Source of the DNA: Hyphomicrobiales bacterium
Lineage (GTDB): Bacteria > Pseudomonadota > Alphaproteobacteria > Rhizobiales > Rhizobiaceae
Assembly: GCA_900472175.1 (NCBI GenBank)
Contig: UCHD01000019.1
Location: 1 to 64,000 of the forward strand
DNA length: 64,000 nt
Direction: 5' to 3'
A model generated the notes under the pieces. That model had not been told where the DNA came from and made no database searches. It saw only the letters and a list, made by a program, of their open reading frames with translations. Positions 42,499 to 52,080 of the stretch are shown in pieces. Every line of letters begins with the position of its first letter. Positions within the stretch are counted from its first letter, which is position 1. The position numbers were made by a program, and so were the translations under genes.

Positions 42499-43320
42499 AT
42501 GTCCCGCTTCCAGGAATTCATTGTCGATCCGCATCCCGCGGACTGGTGGTCGGTCCATCGCGGGGCCTCGCCGATTGTCGGCACGGCCATCCATAACGGC
42601 CATAATATCCGAAGCAACCTCACGGATTTTCTCGGTCTCAGCGCCTGCGATCGGCTGCGCGAAGAGGATCCTTTCACCGAATTCTTCATCCGCGACTTGC
42701 CCAACCGGATCGTCTTTCACCGTTCCCGCTTCGAGATCGATATCAACCGCGCCCGCGACGGCGCCATCTATCTCACGCCGGAGCAGGCCTGGGGGCTGAA
42801 GGTCTGGACGCAGCCGCTGCCGGATGGCGCAGTCGCAGCCTCGCTTGGCATTCATGATGCCTACTATGCCATGCTGGAAACCTATCTGCGCGGTATCGAA
42901 CAGCAATACGGCGCCTTCGTTCTCCTCGACATTCACAGCTACAATCATCGCCGCGATGGAGCGGAAGGCGCCGAAACGCCGTTTGAAAAGGCGCCGCAGA
43001 TCAATATCGGCACGTCTTCGATGGACCGCCAGCGCTGGGCGCCTGTGCTTGATCCCTTCATCGCACAATTGCGCCGCTTCGAATTTCGCGGCCAGCCAAT
43101 GGATGTGCGGGAAAACGTCGCCTTTCAGGGCAAGGGCGAGCAGACCCGTTTTGTCCACGACCGGTTCCCTCAAACAGGCTGCGCCATCGCCATCGAGTTC
43201 AAGAAGTTCTTCATGGACGAGTGGACCGGCGAACCGGACATCGAGGCGCTGAAGGCAATGCGGGAGATGATCCGCCAGTCGCTGCCCGTCCTGCTCGAAG
43301 CCCTGCAGGCGCGGTCATGA
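42499..43320 (+). CDS. N-formylglutamate amidohydrolase-family protein
   Basis: 273 residues from ATG 42499 (AGAAGGA upstream). FGase-family stretches: IVGTAIHNGHNIRSNLTDFLGL, REEDPFTEFFIRDLPNRIVFHRSRFEIDINRARDGAIY, FVLLDIHSYNHRRDGA and CAIAIEFKKFFMDEW; the His/Glu residues are candidate zinc ligands. The classical enzyme hydrolyses N-formyl-L-glutamate in histidine breakdown, but no hut genes are near. Its stop overlaps the start of the DUF1704 gene (ATGA), so it works with that protein, probably on an amide or peptide. Confidence 0.85.
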   Translation: MSRFQEFIVDPHPADWWSVHRGASPIVGTAIHNGHNIRSNLTDFLGLSACDRLREEDPFTEFFIRDLPNRIVFHRSRFEIDINRARDGAIYLTPEQAWGLKVWTQPLPDGAVAASLGIHDAYYAMLETYLRGIEQQYGAFVLLDIHSYNHRRDGAEGAETPFEKAPQINIGTSSMDRQRWAPVLDPFIAQLRRFEFRGQPMDVRENVAFQGKGEQTRFVHDRFPQTGCAIAIEFKKFFMDEWTGEPDIEALKAMREMIRQSLPVLLEALQARS

Positions 43321-45218
43321 CCAGCTTGCGTCACCGCACATCGCGGGAGGTTGTTACCAGCTATCCGCAATGGCTGGAGGAAGTCCTTGATTGCATTCGC
43401 TCTGACAAGTCGGTGCGCAGGGATTTCGACAATGGCGGCCGCCTGCATATCGACCGGCCACTGCCTTTCCTCTCCGTTCACATCGGCAAGGGGAGGGAGG
43501 ATCTCGCTGCGAGAGACATCGCAGCTGCCAACGCCTCCTACTTGGTCGCCGATGACCTCGACGAAGCCGTGCCGATCATTGCGGCAGTCGGCGCCGTTTT
43601 GAATGAGCGATTTGGCGCGTTTTTGCTTCTGGACATCGACGAACTCGATCACGACACGCTGATAACCGACGATGCACCCTACCTTCCGCCCTTCGAAATC
43701 AGGATTGCGTCGACGGACGACGTGGCCGCTCAAAAAGCCGCGGCCGCATTGGCGGAAGGCACGGATATCCGGCAGGTGAAGTTCCGCACGCCGCACGTAA
43801 ACTGGTTCAAGATCAAGACGGATATCCAGGCAGCAAAGTTGACCGCGCAAACCGGATTCCCCCTGGTCGCCGTCCGGTTCGCGCCGATCTACCGGCAGCC
43901 GGAATCGGGCAGCACCTATCCCGATCTGCGCGAACGCCTCGTTGCCAACCTCTTCGATGCGGGCCTCAAGGCCTTTGCAGCGTTTGTCGATGCGACACAA
44001 AGCCTGAAATTGACGACGCATCGGGCGCTGGGCCGCAAGGCTTTCGTCGACGCCGTCAGCCGCGCAGACCGCAGTATCGATGATGTCGCCTCGAGCTTCG
44101 ATTTTCTTTTGGCGGTCACCCCGATCAATACGGATGCCGCCTGGCGGGAATTCAAGGCCGGCAAATTCAAGCAGGAACCGCAGTTTCTCTACCGGCCACT
44201 GTCTGTGCAGGTCGAGGTGGAAAAGCGGAAACTTTTCTCCGTCGCCTTCGATCGTTTCGAGGATCCGGTTCTCTACCATCTCTACCGTGAGAAACAGCAG
44301 GAACTGGACCTGCAACTGTCGCTGATTTCGGCACGAGAAACCAGCCGGTTCGTCGAATATGGCCGGGCGCTCTATGGTCCGGTCGAGCCGTCACTCCACC
44401 GTGTTGCCATTGATATCCTGGCAAAGACGGCGGGGCTCGCCGATGATGGCGATGACAAGGAGGACGATCCGCAGACGGCGGATTGCGGTGAGGTGGAAGC
44501 TGCGGCCCGCGCGATGATTGCCGATTACCATCAGAAATATCCCGGCTTCGCGGCCGAGATCGAATTGCGGGACGACCTGCCGTCCGGCCTGCTGGTTTCC
44601 GGTGAGCGCCTGCTGATATCGCGCCAGACCCTAATGCCGAAGGCTCGCGTGCATGCGCTTTTGAGCCACGAGATCGGCGTGCATCTTCTCACCTATTTCA
44701 ACGGTTCGGCGCAAGGGTTGCGGCTGTTCCGCTCCGGTCTTTCCGGCTACGAGGGCATGCAGGAAGGTCTTGCCGTGTTTTCCGAATATATGGCCGGCGG
44801 CATGACCGTCGGGCGGCTGCGCCTGATCGCGGCTCGGGTGGTTGCCTGCTCGGCAATGCTCGAGGGGCGGCCGTTTACGGGGACCTACGGCATGCTTGTC
44901 AGTGAACACGGGTTCGGTCCCGTCGCTGCTTTTCACCTGACCATGCGGCTCTATCGTGGCGGCGGGCTCGCCAAGGACGCGATTTATCTGCGTGGTCTGC
45001 TGGAACTGCTCAGCCACCTGAAGTCCGGCGGCGCGCTCGATCCGTTCTGGATGGGCAAGATTTCCGCGTCGCATTTCCGGGTCATGCAAGAACTCAGCCT
45101 GCGGGGCCTGCTCAAGGCGCCTGTCATCCGCCCCGCCTTTCTCACCCAACCGCAAGCACAGGCCCGCCTCGACAAGGCGCGGGCAGGACTGAACCCCCTC
45201 GATATGATCATCAGTTAG
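43317..45218 (+). CDS. DUF1704 'QEGLA-motif' metallopeptidase-like protein
   Basis: 633 residues from ATG 43317 (4-base overlap with the previous gene). The N-terminal 350 residues have no recognised domain. The C-terminal half holds LLSHEIGVHLLTYFNG, an HExxxH zinc motif (His451, Glu452, His456), and MQEGLAVFSEYMAGG (residues 482-486, likely third ligand Glu483). Bacterial members are labelled 'flavohemoglobin expression-modulating QEGLA motif protein'. Eukaryotic DUF1704 proteins (MATCAP) are carboxypeptidases that trim C-terminal residues. A peptidase role here is inferred. The next gene starts 8 bases later. Confidence 0.86.
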   Translation: MTSLRHRTSREVVTSYPQWLEEVLDCIRSDKSVRRDFDNGGRLHIDRPLPFLSVHIGKGREDLAARDIAAANASYLVADDLDEAVPIIAAVGAVLNERFGAFLLLDIDELDHDTLITDDAPYLPPFEIRIASTDDVAAQKAAAALAEGTDIRQVKFRTPHVNWFKIKTDIQAAKLTAQTGFPLVAVRFAPIYRQPESGSTYPDLRERLVANLFDAGLKAFAAFVDATQSLKLTTHRALGRKAFVDAVSRADRSIDDVASSFDFLLAVTPINTDAAWREFKAGKFKQEPQFLYRPLSVQVEVEKRKLFSVAFDRFEDPVLYHLYREKQQELDLQLSLISARETSRFVEYGRALYGPVEPSLHRVAIDILAKTAGLADDGDDKEDDPQTADCGEVEAAARAMIADYHQKYPGFAAEIELRDDLPSGLLVSGERLLISRQTLMPKARVHALLSHEIGVHLLTYFNGSAQGLRLFRSGLSGYEGMQEGLAVFSEYMAGGMTVGRLRLIAARVVACSAMLEGRPFTGTYGMLVSEHGFGPVAAFHLTMRLYRGGGLAKDAIYLRGLLELLSHLKSGGALDPFWMGKISASHFRVMQELSLRGLLKAPVIRPAFLTQPQAQARLDKARAGLNPLDMIIS

Positions 45219-45226
45219 GAGCCACC

Positions 45227-46273
45227 ATGCGCGTCGCATTCTTTGTCAATTCGATCGAGAGCGAGGAATCCCATTTCACCACCACGGCACTGGCTATGGC
45301 CGCACTCGCCCGAGGCCATGACGTTTGCTACGTCGCGCCCGGCGATTTTGTCCTGCGTCCGGACGATAGCCTGATGGTGCGGGCAACCATGGTTGCAGCC
45401 GGGAAGTACAAGAATGCCCAGGCATTCCATGACGGTTTTCAGGGCAAGGACGCCAAGGTCCAGACGATCGACGTCCGCGAGGTCGATGTCATTTTCCTGC
45501 GCAACGATCCGTCGCTGGATTCCGACGACAGGCCTTGGGCCGCCCATATCGGCGCGATGTTCGGACGCTTGGCGAGTGAGCGAGGCTCGATCGTCGTCAA
45601 TGATCCGGCCGGGCTGGCGCTGGCCCAGAACAAGCTCTATTTCCAGGGTTTTCCCGAAGCCGTGCGTCCGGAAACCTTGATCTCCAAGAGCATCGAGGAA
45701 ATCCGTGCATTCATTGCCGATCACCGCAAGGGCGTCATCCTCAAGCCGCTGCAGGGTTCTGGCGGCAAGAACGTCTTCAAGATCGCCACGCCCGACGATA
45801 CCAATCTCAACCAGATCTTTGAGGCGGTGAGCGGCGAAGGGTATCTGATCGCGCAGGGATATCTGCCGGAAGCAAAAGCGGGCGACATCCGCTTCTTCAT
45901 GATGAACGGCAAGCCGCTGTCGCGGGATGGCGCCTATGCCGCATTCCGCCGCGTTCCGGCCAAGGGCGAGGTCCGCTCCAACATGCACGCGGCCGGAACG
46001 GCTGAGGCGGTCAAGATCACCGACGACATTCTTGCGGTCGCCGAGTTGGTCCGCCCCAAACTGATCGAGGATGGCATGTTCCTCGTCGGGCTCGACATCG
46101 TCGGCGACAAGATCCTCGAGATCAATGTCTTCACGCCGGGCGGGATTCCAGACATCGCGGCCATGCACAAGATCGATTTTTCCGAAGATATTATCGAGGC
46201 TCTGGAAAAGAAGGCCGCTATCCGCAAGGCTTATGGTGGTGCCATGTCCAACCGGGCACTGGCGACGCTTTAA
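45227..46273 (+). CDS. Glutathione-synthetase-like ATP-grasp ligase
   Basis: 348 residues. N-terminal GshB-type domain (MRVAFFVNSIESEESHFTTTALAMAALARGHDVCYV, RNDPSLDSDDRPWA) and ATP-grasp domain (GVILKPLQGSGGKNVFKI, DIRFFMMNGKPLSRDGAYAAFRRVPAKGEVRSNMHAAG, LVGLDIVGDKILEINVFTPGG). Typical GshB ends EINVTSP, while here it is EINVFTPGG, so the amino-acid acceptor may differ. The family joins a carboxylate to an amine using ATP. It is third in a coupled unit with an amidohydrolase and a metallopeptidase. TAGGAG precedes the ATG. Confidence 0.87.
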   Translation: MRVAFFVNSIESEESHFTTTALAMAALARGHDVCYVAPGDFVLRPDDSLMVRATMVAAGKYKNAQAFHDGFQGKDAKVQTIDVREVDVIFLRNDPSLDSDDRPWAAHIGAMFGRLASERGSIVVNDPAGLALAQNKLYFQGFPEAVRPETLISKSIEEIRAFIADHRKGVILKPLQGSGGKNVFKIATPDDTNLNQIFEAVSGEGYLIAQGYLPEAKAGDIRFFMMNGKPLSRDGAYAAFRRVPAKGEVRSNMHAAGTAEAVKITDDILAVAELVRPKLIEDGMFLVGLDIVGDKILEINVFTPGGIPDIAAMHKIDFSEDIIEALEKKAAIRKAYGGAMSNRALATL

Positions 46274-46329
46274 GCTGTTTTCACGGGCCATCTGTGCTAT
46301 CGCGGGCGCCTCAACGATTGGAAGCGCCC

Positions 46330-47010
46330 GTGATACCCTGGACCCTGATTGACACAGCGATAATGCCTGGCGGCGGCGGTGAGTTGCGGCTGAAGCAGCG
46401 CGGAACCGAATTCTCCATCATGCTCGGGACGATCGAGCTGATGAACAGCCGGTTGAGTGGCTCGGAAGAGGCCTTAGCGCGGCTGTCCTACGAGCGGGTG
46501 CGCAGTCATCCCCGCCCGCATATGCTGATCGGCGGTCTCGGCATGGGGTTTACGCTCAGGGCTGCCTTGGCCGAACTTCCGGCCGATGCCCGCATAACCG
46601 TCGGCGAACTCGTTCCTGCCGTCGTCGCCTGGGCGCGTGGACCGATGGCTGACGTGTTTGCAGGCTGCCTTGATGATACCAGGGTGACCATTCGCGAAGG
46701 CGATGTCGGTCGTCTTATCCAGTCTGCCGCCGCCGAATATGACGCGATCCTTCTTGACGTCGATAATGGGCCGGAAGGACTGACCCGCAGGGCGAACGAC
46801 GATCTTTACAGTGTTGGCGGCCTTCGCGCCGCGCGTAAGGCACTGAAGCCGAACGGTGTTCTCTCCGTCTGGTCATCGGCGCCGGACGCGGGCTTCACCC
46901 GCCGGCTGAAGGAGGCCGGTTTTGTGGTCGAGGAACTCTCGGTGCGCGCCAGCACCAAAGGGCGCGGCGCCCGCCACGTCATCTGGATGGCGACCAGGAC
47001 GGCGCGCTAA
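46330..47010 (+). CDS. Spermidine-synthase-like methyltransferase-fold protein
   Basis: 226 residues from GTG 46330 (GGAAG 5 bases upstream). Rossmann core: HMLIGGLGMGFTLRAALAELPADARITVGELVPAVVAWARG (nucleotide loop and acidic residue), YDAILLDVDNGPEGLTR (catalytic-Asp region in true spermidine synthases) and LKPNGVLSVWSSAPDAGFTRRLKEAGF. It lacks the N-terminal beta domain of full aminopropyltransferases, so the substrate is uncertain. It may be read from the upstream cluster (56-base gap). Its 3' end overlaps the convergent gene by 4 bases. Confidence 0.8.
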   Translation: MIPWTLIDTAIMPGGGGELRLKQRGTEFSIMLGTIELMNSRLSGSEEALARLSYERVRSHPRPHMLIGGLGMGFTLRAALAELPADARITVGELVPAVVAWARGPMADVFAGCLDDTRVTIREGDVGRLIQSAAAEYDAILLDVDNGPEGLTRRANDDLYSVGGLRAARKALKPNGVLSVWSSAPDAGFTRRLKEAGFVVEELSVRASTKGRGARHVIWMATRTAR

Positions 47011-49929: not shown

Positions 49930-52080
49930 ATGAAGACGTCTCGTAATATCAGGCTGTTGGTGTTGCGGTTTTGGCTTATTGCCGTACTGGCGTTGGGGGC
50001 GGCAACAGCGTCCGTCCAGCCCGTTCTTGCGCAGGCGGCCAGTCCACCGGCATCGGCGGACAAGGTCGATCAGTTGATCAAATTGCTGGACGATCCAGAG
50101 ATTCGCGCGTTGCTCAACAAGCAGACGGCCGCACCGGTTGCCGAGCCTGACACGAACATGTCCGCGACGGAATTCAGCGCCTGGGGAGACCGGATCCGGG
50201 ATCATCTACGTCACGTCGGGCAGGCTATCCCATTGGTTCCGTCCGAGTTCATGCGCGCAGGCGCAACGATCGCGTCCGACATCAACGGCCACGGCCCCTT
50301 CGGCGTCTTCGTGCTGTTCCTGACACTGGTGTTGATCGGCTTTGGCGCCGAATGGCTGTTCCACCGCATCGCACGCCGCAGCCGTGTTCATGCAGCCCTG
50401 GCGTATGCGGACGGGGCGCCCGAAAACCCTTTATATGCTGCCGGCCGGCACCTGTTCGCCTTGCTGGCACCGCTCGTCGCCTTCAGTCTGGCAAGCCTTG
50501 GCCTGTTCATGGCCATGACATGGCCGCCATTGCTCGACGCGCTGATGCTGCCTTTGCTTTTGGGCGTCATTGCCTGCCGTTTCGTCATCCGTATCGCCCG
50601 GTTGCTGTTGCTTGGCCCGGATACGGCAGGAGGCGTTGACGGTGCGGCAGGGTTGGGGGCGGCCGACCGCACGTCCGGCATCTTCTGGTATAAGCGCATC
50701 TTCTGGATGTCGTGCATCCTGTTTGCCGGATGGGCATTGGCGGGCGTCATGTCGGCGCTGAACATTACGCCTGCCGTGCGGGGCGTGGTGGTCTACGCTC
50801 TTGGCCTCGGTCTGCTGCTCGTTGCTATCGAGACCATTTGGAACCGGCCGGCAGCGATCGCACGGCCGCATGGCCGCGGGGCCATGGAATGGGCGCTGAC
50901 CTTTTATCTGTGCCTGCTTTGGGCGCTGTGGGTCGCGGGTCTGGTCATCGTTCTGTGGCTTGGTATCTATGCGTTGATTTTACCCGGCCTCCTGAAAGCA
51001 ACGACATCGATGGCGCGAAGCGCTTTCGCAGGCCAGCCCGACATGCCCGGCAGCGGCAATCCTGTCATCGAGGTTCTGGTGGAGCGGGGCGCGAGGGCCG
51101 GCATCATCGCGCTCGCCGTGCTCTGGCTCGCCTTCATTGTCAGCAAGCGATCGTCGATGTTTACCGGCGAGGGCATGACCGATCGTCTTATCCAGGGTGT
51201 TCTGGCGGGCGCGGTCATTCTGCTCGTTGCCGATATTCTCTGGCAGATCGTCAAGGCGATGATCAACCGCACACTGGAACAGGCCCGGACATCCTCCACG
51301 GCCGACACTGCCCATGCGGCACGAAACGGCAGGCTGTTGACGCTGCTGCCGCTGCTGCGCACCGTGCTGGCGGTTATTATCGGAGTGATCGCGGTCCTGA
51401 TGGTTCTCTCGGGCCTTGGCGTTCAGGTTGCGCCGCTGATCGCCGGTGCGGGCATTTTCGGCGTCGCCATCGGCTTCGGTTCACAGACGCTGGTCAAGGA
51501 TGTGATCAGCGGCGTCTTCTACATGATGGATGATGCCTTTCGGGTCGGGGAATATATCCAGAGCGGCAGCTACAAGGGCACGGTGGAATCTTTCAGCATC
51601 CGTTCGGTGCGTCTGCGCCACCATCGCGGGCCGGTCTTCACGGTCCCCTTCGGGACGCTTGGCGCCGTCCAGAACATGAGCCGCGATTGGGTGATCGACA
51701 AGTTCACGATCTCGGTCGGCTACGGCACCGATATCAACAAGGTGCGCAAGATGGTCAAGGCTGTGGGGGCGTCACTGCTTCAAGACGAGGAGTACGGCGC
51801 GATGATCCTGGAGACGCTGAAGATGAAGGGTGTCGAACAATTTGGTGATTACGGCATCAATCTGAGTTTTGCGATGATGACGAAGCCAGGTTATCAGACG
51901 ACGATCCGCCGGAAGGCCTACATGATGATCCGCGAGGCATTCATCCAGAATGGCGTCGTCTTTGCTTCGCCAACCGTTCAGGTTGCCAGCAACGATCCGT
52001 CATCGGCCGCCGCTGCCGCTGCCACGGTCAAGGCAGCAATGGACCAGAAGAAACTGGCGGAAGGCGGGGAGGGCGCCTGA
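49930..52080 (+). CDS. Second large MscS-family mechanosensitive channel
   Basis: 716 residues. Signal peptide (VLRFWLIAVLALGAATASVQPVLAQ), a periplasmic domain, then many hydrophobic helices. The MscS core is LIAGAGIFGVAIGFGSQTLVKDVISGVFYMMDDAFRVGEYI followed by GTVESFSIRSVRLRHHRGPVFTVPFG. The C-terminus is Ala/Lys-rich. Length and layout match the protein at 0.5-2.7 kb, but the sequences are clearly diverged. It protects against osmotic downshock. A single-gene unit, 247 bases after glgA. Confidence 0.92.
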   Translation: MKTSRNIRLLVLRFWLIAVLALGAATASVQPVLAQAASPPASADKVDQLIKLLDDPEIRALLNKQTAAPVAEPDTNMSATEFSAWGDRIRDHLRHVGQAIPLVPSEFMRAGATIASDINGHGPFGVFVLFLTLVLIGFGAEWLFHRIARRSRVHAALAYADGAPENPLYAAGRHLFALLAPLVAFSLASLGLFMAMTWPPLLDALMLPLLLGVIACRFVIRIARLLLLGPDTAGGVDGAAGLGAADRTSGIFWYKRIFWMSCILFAGWALAGVMSALNITPAVRGVVVYALGLGLLLVAIETIWNRPAAIARPHGRGAMEWALTFYLCLLWALWVAGLVIVLWLGIYALILPGLLKATTSMARSAFAGQPDMPGSGNPVIEVLVERGARAGIIALAVLWLAFIVSKRSSMFTGEGMTDRLIQGVLAGAVILLVADILWQIVKAMINRTLEQARTSSTADTAHAARNGRLLTLLPLLRTVLAVIIGVIAVLMVLSGLGVQVAPLIAGAGIFGVAIGFGSQTLVKDVISGVFYMMDDAFRVGEYIQSGSYKGTVESFSIRSVRLRHHRGPVFTVPFGTLGAVQNMSRDWVIDKFTISVGYGTDINKVRKMVKAVGASLLQDEEYGAMILETLKMKGVEQFGDYGINLSFAMMTKPGYQTTIRRKAYMMIREAFIQNGVVFASPTVQVASNDPSSAAAAAATVKAAMDQKKLAEGGEGA

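Follow-up and report, generated by a model that had tools for sequence, protein, structure and literature searches.

The first 64,000 nucleotides of contig UCHD01000019.1 (assembly GCA_900472175.1, Hyphomicrobiales bacterium), which we call the window, contain three adjoining genes for an N-formylglutamate-amidohydrolase-like metallohydrolase (FGase), a two-domain protein of family PF08014 (QEGLA) and an ATP-grasp ligase (LIG). FGase, QEGLA and LIG form a real, widely conserved unit, which is hidden across about ten phyla behind the names formylglutamate amidohydrolase, flavohemoglobin modulator and glutathione synthase. The explanation that we favour, tentatively, is that this triplet could be a writer/trimmer cassette that acts on a short amino-acid tail or peptide, probably an acidic one, in low-osmolarity adaptation.

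All three genes lie on the + strand; FGase and QEGLA overlap by 4 bases and a gap of 8 bases separates QEGLA from LIG (Table 1). An earlier sequence-only reading had described FGase-like, DUF1704 and glutathione-synthetase-like genes spaced by −4 and +8 bases, and coordinates together with Pfam and NCBI models bear out this description (we take DUF1704 to be the older name of PF08014, now MATCAP). QEGLA scores 306.6 bits against PF08014 (cut-off 27) and 368.5 bits against TIGR02421 (cut-off 338.65). LIG contains the GSH-S domains PF02955/PF02951, and its best model is the "glutathione synthetase" subfamily NF009110 (480.5 over 408). TIGR02421, called "flavohemoglobin expression-modulating QEGLA motif protein", and NF009110 are passed by QEGLA and LIG, respectively, and provide names only. 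Inspection by eye, with no predictor run, revealed no signal peptide in FGase, QEGLA or LIG.

Table 1. Features of the FGase-QEGLA-LIG triplet in the window
Feature	Position	Strand	Basis
FGase-like metallohydrolase (P0001), 273 aa	42499..43320	+	PF05013 8.2e-21, 75.6 bits over 28.9
QEGLA/DUF1704 (MATCAP family) protein (P0002), 633 aa, two domains	43317..45218	+	PF08014 2.9e-91, TIGR02421
QEGLA N-terminal domain, residues 13-246, degenerate FGase copy, presumably inactive	43353..44054	+	profile match, model, motif loss
MATCAP domain of QEGLA, residues 278-623	44148..45185	+	PF08014 match
HExxxH motif of QEGLA (HEIGVH, residues 451-456)	44667..44684	+	HE...H in 94/94 proteins
QEGLA motif, residues 482-486	44760..44774	+	QEG[LMI]A in 94/94
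LIG, ATP-grasp ligase of the GshB superfamily, not GshB (P0003), 348 aa	45227..46273	+	NF009110; separate clade
LIG active-site loop EINVFTPGG	46118..46144	+	alignment to 1gsa (E. coli GshB: EINVTSPTC)

To examine conservation we scanned one genome per species (84,980 species) with a QEGLA alignment; the 574 relatives were ordered by similarity to QEGLA, and the top 80 were retained. The order FGase-QEGLA-LIG on one strand is present at 74 of these 80 loci; FGase is matched at 77 and LIG at 79. Conserved order had been proposed as support for a functional unit and scattering in relatives as evidence against it; the genes stay together, with a few exceptions at other loci. At three of the six loci without full order no FGase was seen (L118, L122 and L132, with L118 and L132 beginning at a contig end), the contig of L138 stops before LIG, and L128 and L140 are rearranged. 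L120 carries an MgtE gene between QEGLA and LIG. Alphaproteobacteria contribute 53 loci; the other 27 are assigned by record title to Planctomycetota, Campylobacterota, Poribacteria, Gemmatimonadota, Verrucomicrobia, Kiritimatiellae, Calditrichota, Acidobacteria, Bacteroidota, Deltaproteobacteria and Acidimicrobiales, which makes about ten phyla in all. The distance between QEGLA and LIG is −4, 0, +8 or +9 bases in 52 of 75 pairs. After filtering by length and score, which dropped truncated copies and kept the window proteins, the alignments contained 94 QEGLA, 79 FGase and 92 LIG rows.

The C-terminal module of QEGLA is a MATCAP domain. Its HExxxH and QEGLA motifs are intact, as had been noted, and H451, E452, H456, Q482, E483 and G484 are invariant in a 13-row alignment. 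By analogy to the EEG motif of human KIAA0895L (TMCP1, in the extract of PMC10499314), E483 is likely the third zinc ligand. The PDB entries closest in fold to an AlphaFold2 model of full QEGLA (predicted local distance difference test score, pLDDT, 82.3; predicted template modelling score, pTM, 0.63) were found with Foldseek: the five best matches are human MATCAP chains (7z5g/7z6s; E 3.6e-7 to 1.1e-6, TMt 0.63-0.66, with prob 1.00 at E 3.6e-7), followed by M32 carboxypeptidases. Searches against PDB sequences gave no match at E 1 for QEGLA (phmmer) and a single chance-level match for FGase (E 0.34). The suggested kinship of DUF1704 proteins with tubulin-trimming enzymes is therefore borne out by both PF08014 and the MATCAP fold. 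The human enzymes MATCAP/TMCP (KIAA0895L and KIAA0895) share with QEGLA the family, the fold and an HExxxH motif combined with a Glu-containing third motif; they differ in sequence, with 16-17% identity in the structural match, and in lacking the FGase-like domain that is extra in QEGLA. We know of no ordinary tubulin tail that bacteria could edit. According to the extract of PMC10499314, human TMCP1/2 cleave Tyr, Glu or Ala off the C-termini of tubulin and also trim chains of polyglutamate. For the name QEGLA, the literature that we found offers no more than an entry in an expression table (PMC10308900, in extract).

The standalone FGase is probably an active enzyme, judging from its residues: H32, E55-E56-D57-P58, S76-R77-F78, D81, N83-R84 and H146 are identical in all 79 standalone copies, and E233 in 78, with one gap. 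The histidine-degradation enzyme HutG belongs to the same family PF05013 and has the presumed zinc and catalytic residues in common with FGase, but assignment of FGase as HutG was rejected, given 23.8 bits against the TIGR02017 equivalog cut-off of 278.75 and no hut neighbours in the stretch read. Among five FGase-family genes in the window's genome, that of the triplet is the most divergent (76 bits versus 150-256).

Within QEGLA, the first ~235 residues represent a degenerate copy of FGase. Their origin is apparent from a second architecture, in which LIG is followed by one open reading frame (ORF) of ~660-700 aa that codes for an FGase fused to QEGLA. This fused form occurs at six loci (L033, L036-L039 and L043; five from the same phylum as the window, one from the same class), and LIG with a fused FGase-QEGLA is also present in Photobacterium sp. 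DA100. In hhalign, a profile of seven QEGLA N-termini aligns to the fused FGase domains over 211 columns (prob 79, P 1.6e-5) and to standalone FGase over 116 columns (prob 66, P 5.8e-5); between the fused domains and standalone FGase the match reaches prob 100 and 4e-44. All five FGase motifs are retained in 5 of the 94 QEGLA proteins, which are of the fused form, one motif is retained in 6, and none in 83. A domain-only AlphaFold2 model based on 45 sequences of the degenerate kind (pLDDT 91.7, pTM 0.90) has as top Foldseek match the M14 metallo-carboxypeptidase 4b6z (E 2.4e-5), with carboxypeptidase A-like 3l2n and amidase_3 among further matches and the FGase-like 2odf at rank 29 (E 1.6e-3, prob 1.00, TM 0.43/0.41). 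Nucleoside phosphorylases score as well, so that by itself the search by fold would not point to FGase in particular. Most of these lineages have a gene for an active-type FGase directly 5' of the gene with the dead copy, which makes an enzyme-pseudoenzyme pair the natural reading; the active FGase probably pairs with the dead domain of QEGLA. Two side observations concern the fused form. A MaoP/DUF413 gene lies just 5' of two such loci (L039 5671-6012, by eye; L170 4530-4889, annotated), and in Vibrio sp. HDW18 a MaoP/DUF413 gene occupies the place expected for LIG. At L033 (5245-10025) a RimK-like ligase is encoded divergently from LIG, the fused QEGLA has a degenerate FGase domain with no standalone FGase beside it, and a short MscS gene follows 20 bases downstream.

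LIG belongs to the GshB superfamily, yet we rejected it as the glutathione synthetase GshB of the cell. Its scores of 209.9 and 226.1 bits fall below both equivalog cut-offs (TIGR01380, 299.05; NF003573, 272), and the window's genome encodes a true GshB on contig C6 (402.5 bits; LIG 209.6). In a tree of 56 proteins, GshB, RimK, three-gene-form LIG and fused-form LIG are four separate groups, including clades of 8 GshB (support 100/99), 36 LIG (100/97) and 6 LIG (99/100); the tree took 42 of the 92 LIG rows, and long branches leave the order between groups unsure. LIG is not a RimK either (NF007764, 31.1 bits versus 331). The variant loop EINVFTPGG, to which the sequence-only reading had drawn attention, is largely conserved in its PGG part: of 92 ligases, 81 match E[IV]NV.[ST]PGG, 8 have a different PGG, PGA or PGT form, and 3 show no pattern match. 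The ATP-grasp residues D290, E298 and N300 are invariant in 12 aligned sequences.

These data bear on the idea that LIG is a lineage-specific synthetase for glutathione or another gamma-glutamyl thiol, with the two hydrolases recycling the thiol. The plasmid copy of LIG described below is annotated as glutathione synthase. Two fused-form LIG proteins that we tested pass NF003573 (276 and 280 over 272) and fail TIGR01380 (238 and 249); because these proteins pass one NCBI GshB model, fused-form LIG is annotated as GshB. Moreover, 20 of 28 triplet genomes have LIG and no GshB over the TIGR01380 cut-off. Against this stand the window's genome and seven others of the 28 that encode a separate GshB over that cut-off, with all their LIG rows under it, as well as the separate clades of LIG and GshB. 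E. coli-type GshA (PF04262) was found in only 5 of the 28 genomes, all with true GshB, in a search that did not cover GCS2-type GshA. We consider a thiol synthetase improbable.

More than one LIG gene or gene piece was found at 5 of the 27 non-alphaproteobacterial loci (L125, L128, L132, L139 and L141); L117 contains one broken gene. LIG genes stand head to tail at L125 (3118-5272), L139 (11860-15095, up to three) and L141 (7864-9974). The first copies of L139, L125 and L141 form a supported subclade with the single copy of L122 that spans Planctomycetota and Gemmatimonadota, which suggests two ligation specificities. Such repetition would fit stepwise building of a chain. Some ATP-grasp enzymes mature ribosomally synthesized and post-translationally modified peptides (RiPPs), and LIG might accordingly be the maturase of a RiPP-like natural-product cluster. 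Against the ribosomal-peptide maturase model TIGR04187, LIG obtains 24.3 bits, but this is far under the cut-off of 350 and LIG was rejected as a RiPP maturase. The triplet is also very widely conserved and has no recurrent precursor gene of at least 80 aa (shorter ORFs were not clustered), so that we regard a RiPP cluster as very improbable.

The genes around the triplet may point to osmotic adaptation, mostly outside Alphaproteobacteria. Recurrent neighbours in 45 diverse loci are genes for MscS (11), CorA (7), SLC12-type permeases (5) and MgtE (3). Of 26 whole genomes, 12 have an MscS gene within 12 kb (0.78 expected; nominal P 1e-12) and 8 a CorA gene within 10 kb (0.13 expected; nominal P 3e-13), with one of these eight CorA genes partial at a contig end. 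The 26 genomes, mostly from outside Alphaproteobacteria, represent 16 of the 27 non-alphaproteobacterial loci and 10 genomes of a phylum search. The other eleven of these 27 loci were left out, nine on contigs or loci shorter than 12 kb and two further Pontibacter, as were the Rhizobiaceae genomes G000 and G307 and a fragment in G173; MscS lies 6.8 kb from QEGLA in G000, and G307 has none on that contig. As a control, 62 other loci for RimK-domain ATP-grasp proteins from the same genomes were examined, of which 5 are near MscS and 2 near CorA. The corresponding counts for QEGLA loci are 14 of 31 and 9 of 31 (Fisher 6.6e-5 and 6.7e-4). The control set includes the RimK beside the triplet of G304; four second gene pieces were dropped, and an orphan LIG-like gene of G401 is in neither set. 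This orphan (G401:C20:150861-151805) scores 196.9 bits against TIGR01380, with no QEGLA on its contig and MscS 5.6 kb away. The window's genome contains three MscS genes, two of them in the window, at 880-1068 on the − strand, 43 kb off, and at 49930-52080, 6.8 kb from QEGLA. Inspection by eye revealed no common acidic C-terminal tail in the neighbouring MscS and CorA proteins.

A further link is the rlo-type operon that begins ~100-112 bases 3' of LIG in G093 (L044 4265-7277) and G113 (L160 2688-5679), two genomes of one family. The L160 genes match PF05618, PF14402/PF14400 and TIGR02291; those of L044 code for a PF05618 retropepsin, a large membrane protein (by eye only) and an ATP-grasp protein (PF14397). 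A PF05618 retropepsin is directly beside the triplet in 2 of the 26 genomes. Pseudomonas aeruginosa needs its rlo operon to tolerate hypo-osmotic stress, and loss of the ATP-grasp or the membrane protein rescues loss of the proteases, as when rloB or rloC is deleted in the triple rloA mutant (both from an extract of PMC12239564).

Published expression data also fit an osmotic role. At 1% compared with 3% NaCl, Photobacterium damselae raises RS17020 ("GshB") 38.4-fold, the adjacent RS17025 (QEGLA) 27.5-fold and RimK 52-fold, and the authors read RS17020 as glutathione synthetase (extract of PMC10308900). Based on the annotation in this extract and on the locus of Photobacterium sp. DA100, A0J47_RS17020 is probably a fused-form LIG instead of glutathione synthetase. 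According to the extract of PMC10219603, KEGG orthologues for glutamate modification (including K05844), for CorA (K03284) and for a mechanosensitive channel (K03282) are more numerous in brackish genomes than in those of marine relatives.

From these observations we can propose how the triplet may work. LIG would activate a carboxyl group with ATP and add an amino acid, QEGLA would act as a MATCAP-family zinc carboxypeptidase that takes off C-terminal residues, and FGase, as a zinc hydrolase, would remove the last remaining or an acyl-capped residue. The dead FGase domain of QEGLA may hold FGase, so that both trimming activities would reside in one complex. The most likely product would be an acidic (glutamyl-type) tail of short length, carried by a protein C terminus or by a small peptide, which cells would add and take off during low-osmolarity adaptation in parallel to RimK-RimB and RloA-RloB-RloC. 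The sequence-only reading had envisaged a peptide-modifying system with one enzyme that makes amide bonds and two that may break them. That picture stands as far as predicted reactions go: the unit, its order, a ligase that is not GshB and the MATCAP kinship strengthen it, and the ligation target and carboxypeptidase activity in bacteria are what we infer. The glutamyl-type peptide or amino-acid tag of that reading receives indirect support by analogy to RimK and rlo. New relative to it are the dead FGase domain and the fused form, together with the repetition of ligase genes and the low-osmolarity context.

The same enzymes might instead make and recycle a free small peptide or compatible solute, namely an acidic glutamyl di- or tripeptide, perhaps with an N-acyl cap, that balances K+, and not a protein tag. 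LIG would then join, FGase uncap and QEGLA recycle. FGase and AspA-type hydrolases act on N-acyl-glutamate or N-acyl-aspartate, RimK-AspA-RimB has the same make-up as the triplet, and up to three head-to-tail LIG genes at L139 would suit sequential peptide building. MscS, CorA, MgtE and SLC12-type transporters near the diverse loci are compatible with such a solute, and RimK does make free poly-alpha-glutamate (extract of PMC11957791). That the human MATCAP relatives act on protein tails (PMC10499314, in extract) speaks for a tag, and across the 53 alphaproteobacterial loci no exporter was seen to keep a constant position next to the triplet. A free peptide appears to us rather unlikely, though it deserves serious attention.

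The tail-editing enzymes of tubulin comprise an ATP-grasp ligase (TTL), an M14-like metallohydrolase (CCP) and a MATCAP carboxypeptidase. A bolder form of the protein-tail explanation is a bacterial "C-terminal tail code", with these three enzyme kinds in one operon acting on a protein C terminus as a low-osmolarity switch, and with the FGase enzyme-pseudoenzyme pair holding the trimming complex. If this were true, eukaryotic MATCAP would descend from a bacterial tail-editing family. We regard this form as distinctly unlikely.

Several observations weigh against the writer/trimmer cassette that we favour. Glutamate is suggested as the preferred residue only by analogy. The link to MscS and CorA was noticed on many of the loci that were later counted, and the nominal P values assume uniform gene placement without correction for kinship among genomes that are related. 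Of the 53 alphaproteobacterial loci, 8 have MscS nearby, six of them through a single orthologous gene shared by the closest relatives of the window, and none has CorA nearby. Since MscS is rare and CorA absent there, the window's own lineage contributes little to the osmotic link, and a low-osmolarity role would be read for it mainly from relatives. Five of six fused-form genomes have neither MscS nor CorA near the triplet. Other RimB loci lie near MscS in 3 of 17 cases, one of them the triplet's own, and because this proximity is rare the gene-context parallel to RimBK is weak. Exceptions to the three-gene scheme also count: the fused gene of Vibrio sp. HDW18 has no LIG within about 5 kb, the sole FGase of L033 is fused and degenerate, no FGase was seen at L045 and L122, and L040 (8658-10580) codes for a long-form QEGLA without FGase or LIG in 18 kb. 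The genome of L040 also contains a complete triplet (L044). Finally, clustering of greedy longest ORFs of at least 80 aa, which leaves shorter ORFs outside, revealed no candidate gene for a substrate: beyond close relatives, no partner keeps a constant position next to the triplet across the 53 alphaproteobacterial loci, and the triplet therefore looks self-contained. ABC-transporter ATPases lie within 10 kb at 24 of these 53 loci on either strand, and we take this cluster of an abundant family for background.

Those transporters could also be expected around a unit that breaks down or detoxifies acyl-glutamates or small peptides, in which LIG would be a carboxylate-amine ligase, the genes would lie together for metabolic reasons and tails would play no part. 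In favour of this, the triplet FGase is the most divergent of five related hydrolases in its genome, and within the window's own family the MATCAP gene shows the sporadic occurrence typical of accessory catabolic genes (32 of 297 genomes; 11 of 109 genera). Yet the ATPases have neither fixed place nor fixed strand, the bare triplet recurs in about ten phyla, and the annotated GshB and QEGLA genes of Photobacterium are induced by low salt (PMC10308900, in extract). A catabolic role thus has little likelihood in our view.

FGase, QEGLA and LIG find matches in the same order on plasmid pSmeSM11d of Sinorhizobium meliloti SM11. A syntenic locus is on plasmid p3 of Pararhizobium qamdonense, which carries the same triplet with identities of 82% (FGase), 87% (QEGLA) and 97% (LIG), annotated as N-formylglutamate amidohydrolase, flavohemoglobin expression-modulating QEGLA motif protein and glutathione synthase. 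Window and plasmid have in common the genes for triose-phosphate isomerase, RpiB, DeoR, pncB and TetR before the triplet and for a methyltransferase and glgA after it. The methyltransferase gene (window 46294-47010; MnmC family per p3 annotation) starts 20 bases 3' of LIG, and since it recurs only in close relatives we place it outside the unit. No hut or gsh gene was recognized by eye among the ORFs overlapping 38-51 kb of the window, and none is annotated in the syntenic 13.9 kb of p3, which agrees with the earlier statement that genes for histidine degradation and glutathione are not nearby. At two loci (L097 9182-13693 and L117 11890-12936) frame changes or a stop interrupt genes of the triplet, possibly through sequencing error. 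In a phylum-wide draw, 47 of 398 genomes encode a MATCAP protein of any kind, many of a short form. By tblastn, FGase and LIG of the kind described here were found at none of 18 short-QEGLA loci (L034, L035 and L046-L061); these proteins, mostly of 390-480 aa, are outside our claim for the triplet. A defence system and a phage system were rejected as candidates: PADLOC-DB has no match for FGase, QEGLA or LIG, and no record in the phage collection matches QEGLA.

Among the open-licence PMC papers retrieved by our searches we found no description of the triplet as a unit, of the degenerate FGase domain or of the osmotic context. The individual families are known and automatically annotated; together they may constitute a writer-eraser cassette of the ligase/peptidase type whose peptidases come from families different from those of earlier systems. 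One of these systems is RimK-RimB, with RimA or an AspA-type partner, in which an ATP-grasp ligase is likewise opposed by a peptidase and often accompanied by an acyl-amino-acid hydrolase; RimB removes what RimK adds to ribosomal protein S6 (extract of PMC11957791), and RimK is induced together with the annotated GshB and QEGLA at low salt (PMC10308900, in extract). Unlike this system, the triplet has a MATCAP-type peptidase instead of a retropepsin, an FGase instead of AstE/AspA, and LIG instead of RimK. At 10 RimK loci that we examined, one cut by a contig end, RimB is present at 9 and AspA at 6. RimK, RimB and an AstE/AspA-type hydrolase form a recurrent cassette in their own right (L154 7799-10650; L162-L166), which stands beside MscS and CorA in L154 and for which one search of the open-licence PMC literature listed no pertinent paper by title. 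The rlo system (RloA retropepsin, RloB 7TM-transglutaminase, RloC ATP-grasp) resembles the triplet in combining ligase and peptidase, but the ATP-grasp superfamily is the sole shared family, and RloA is secreted. Solving the triplet would reveal the role of bacterial relatives of tubulin detyrosinases and correct the reading of the salt-regulated "GshB" of Photobacterium, and the triplet would become a third ligase/peptidase system beside RimBK and Rlo.

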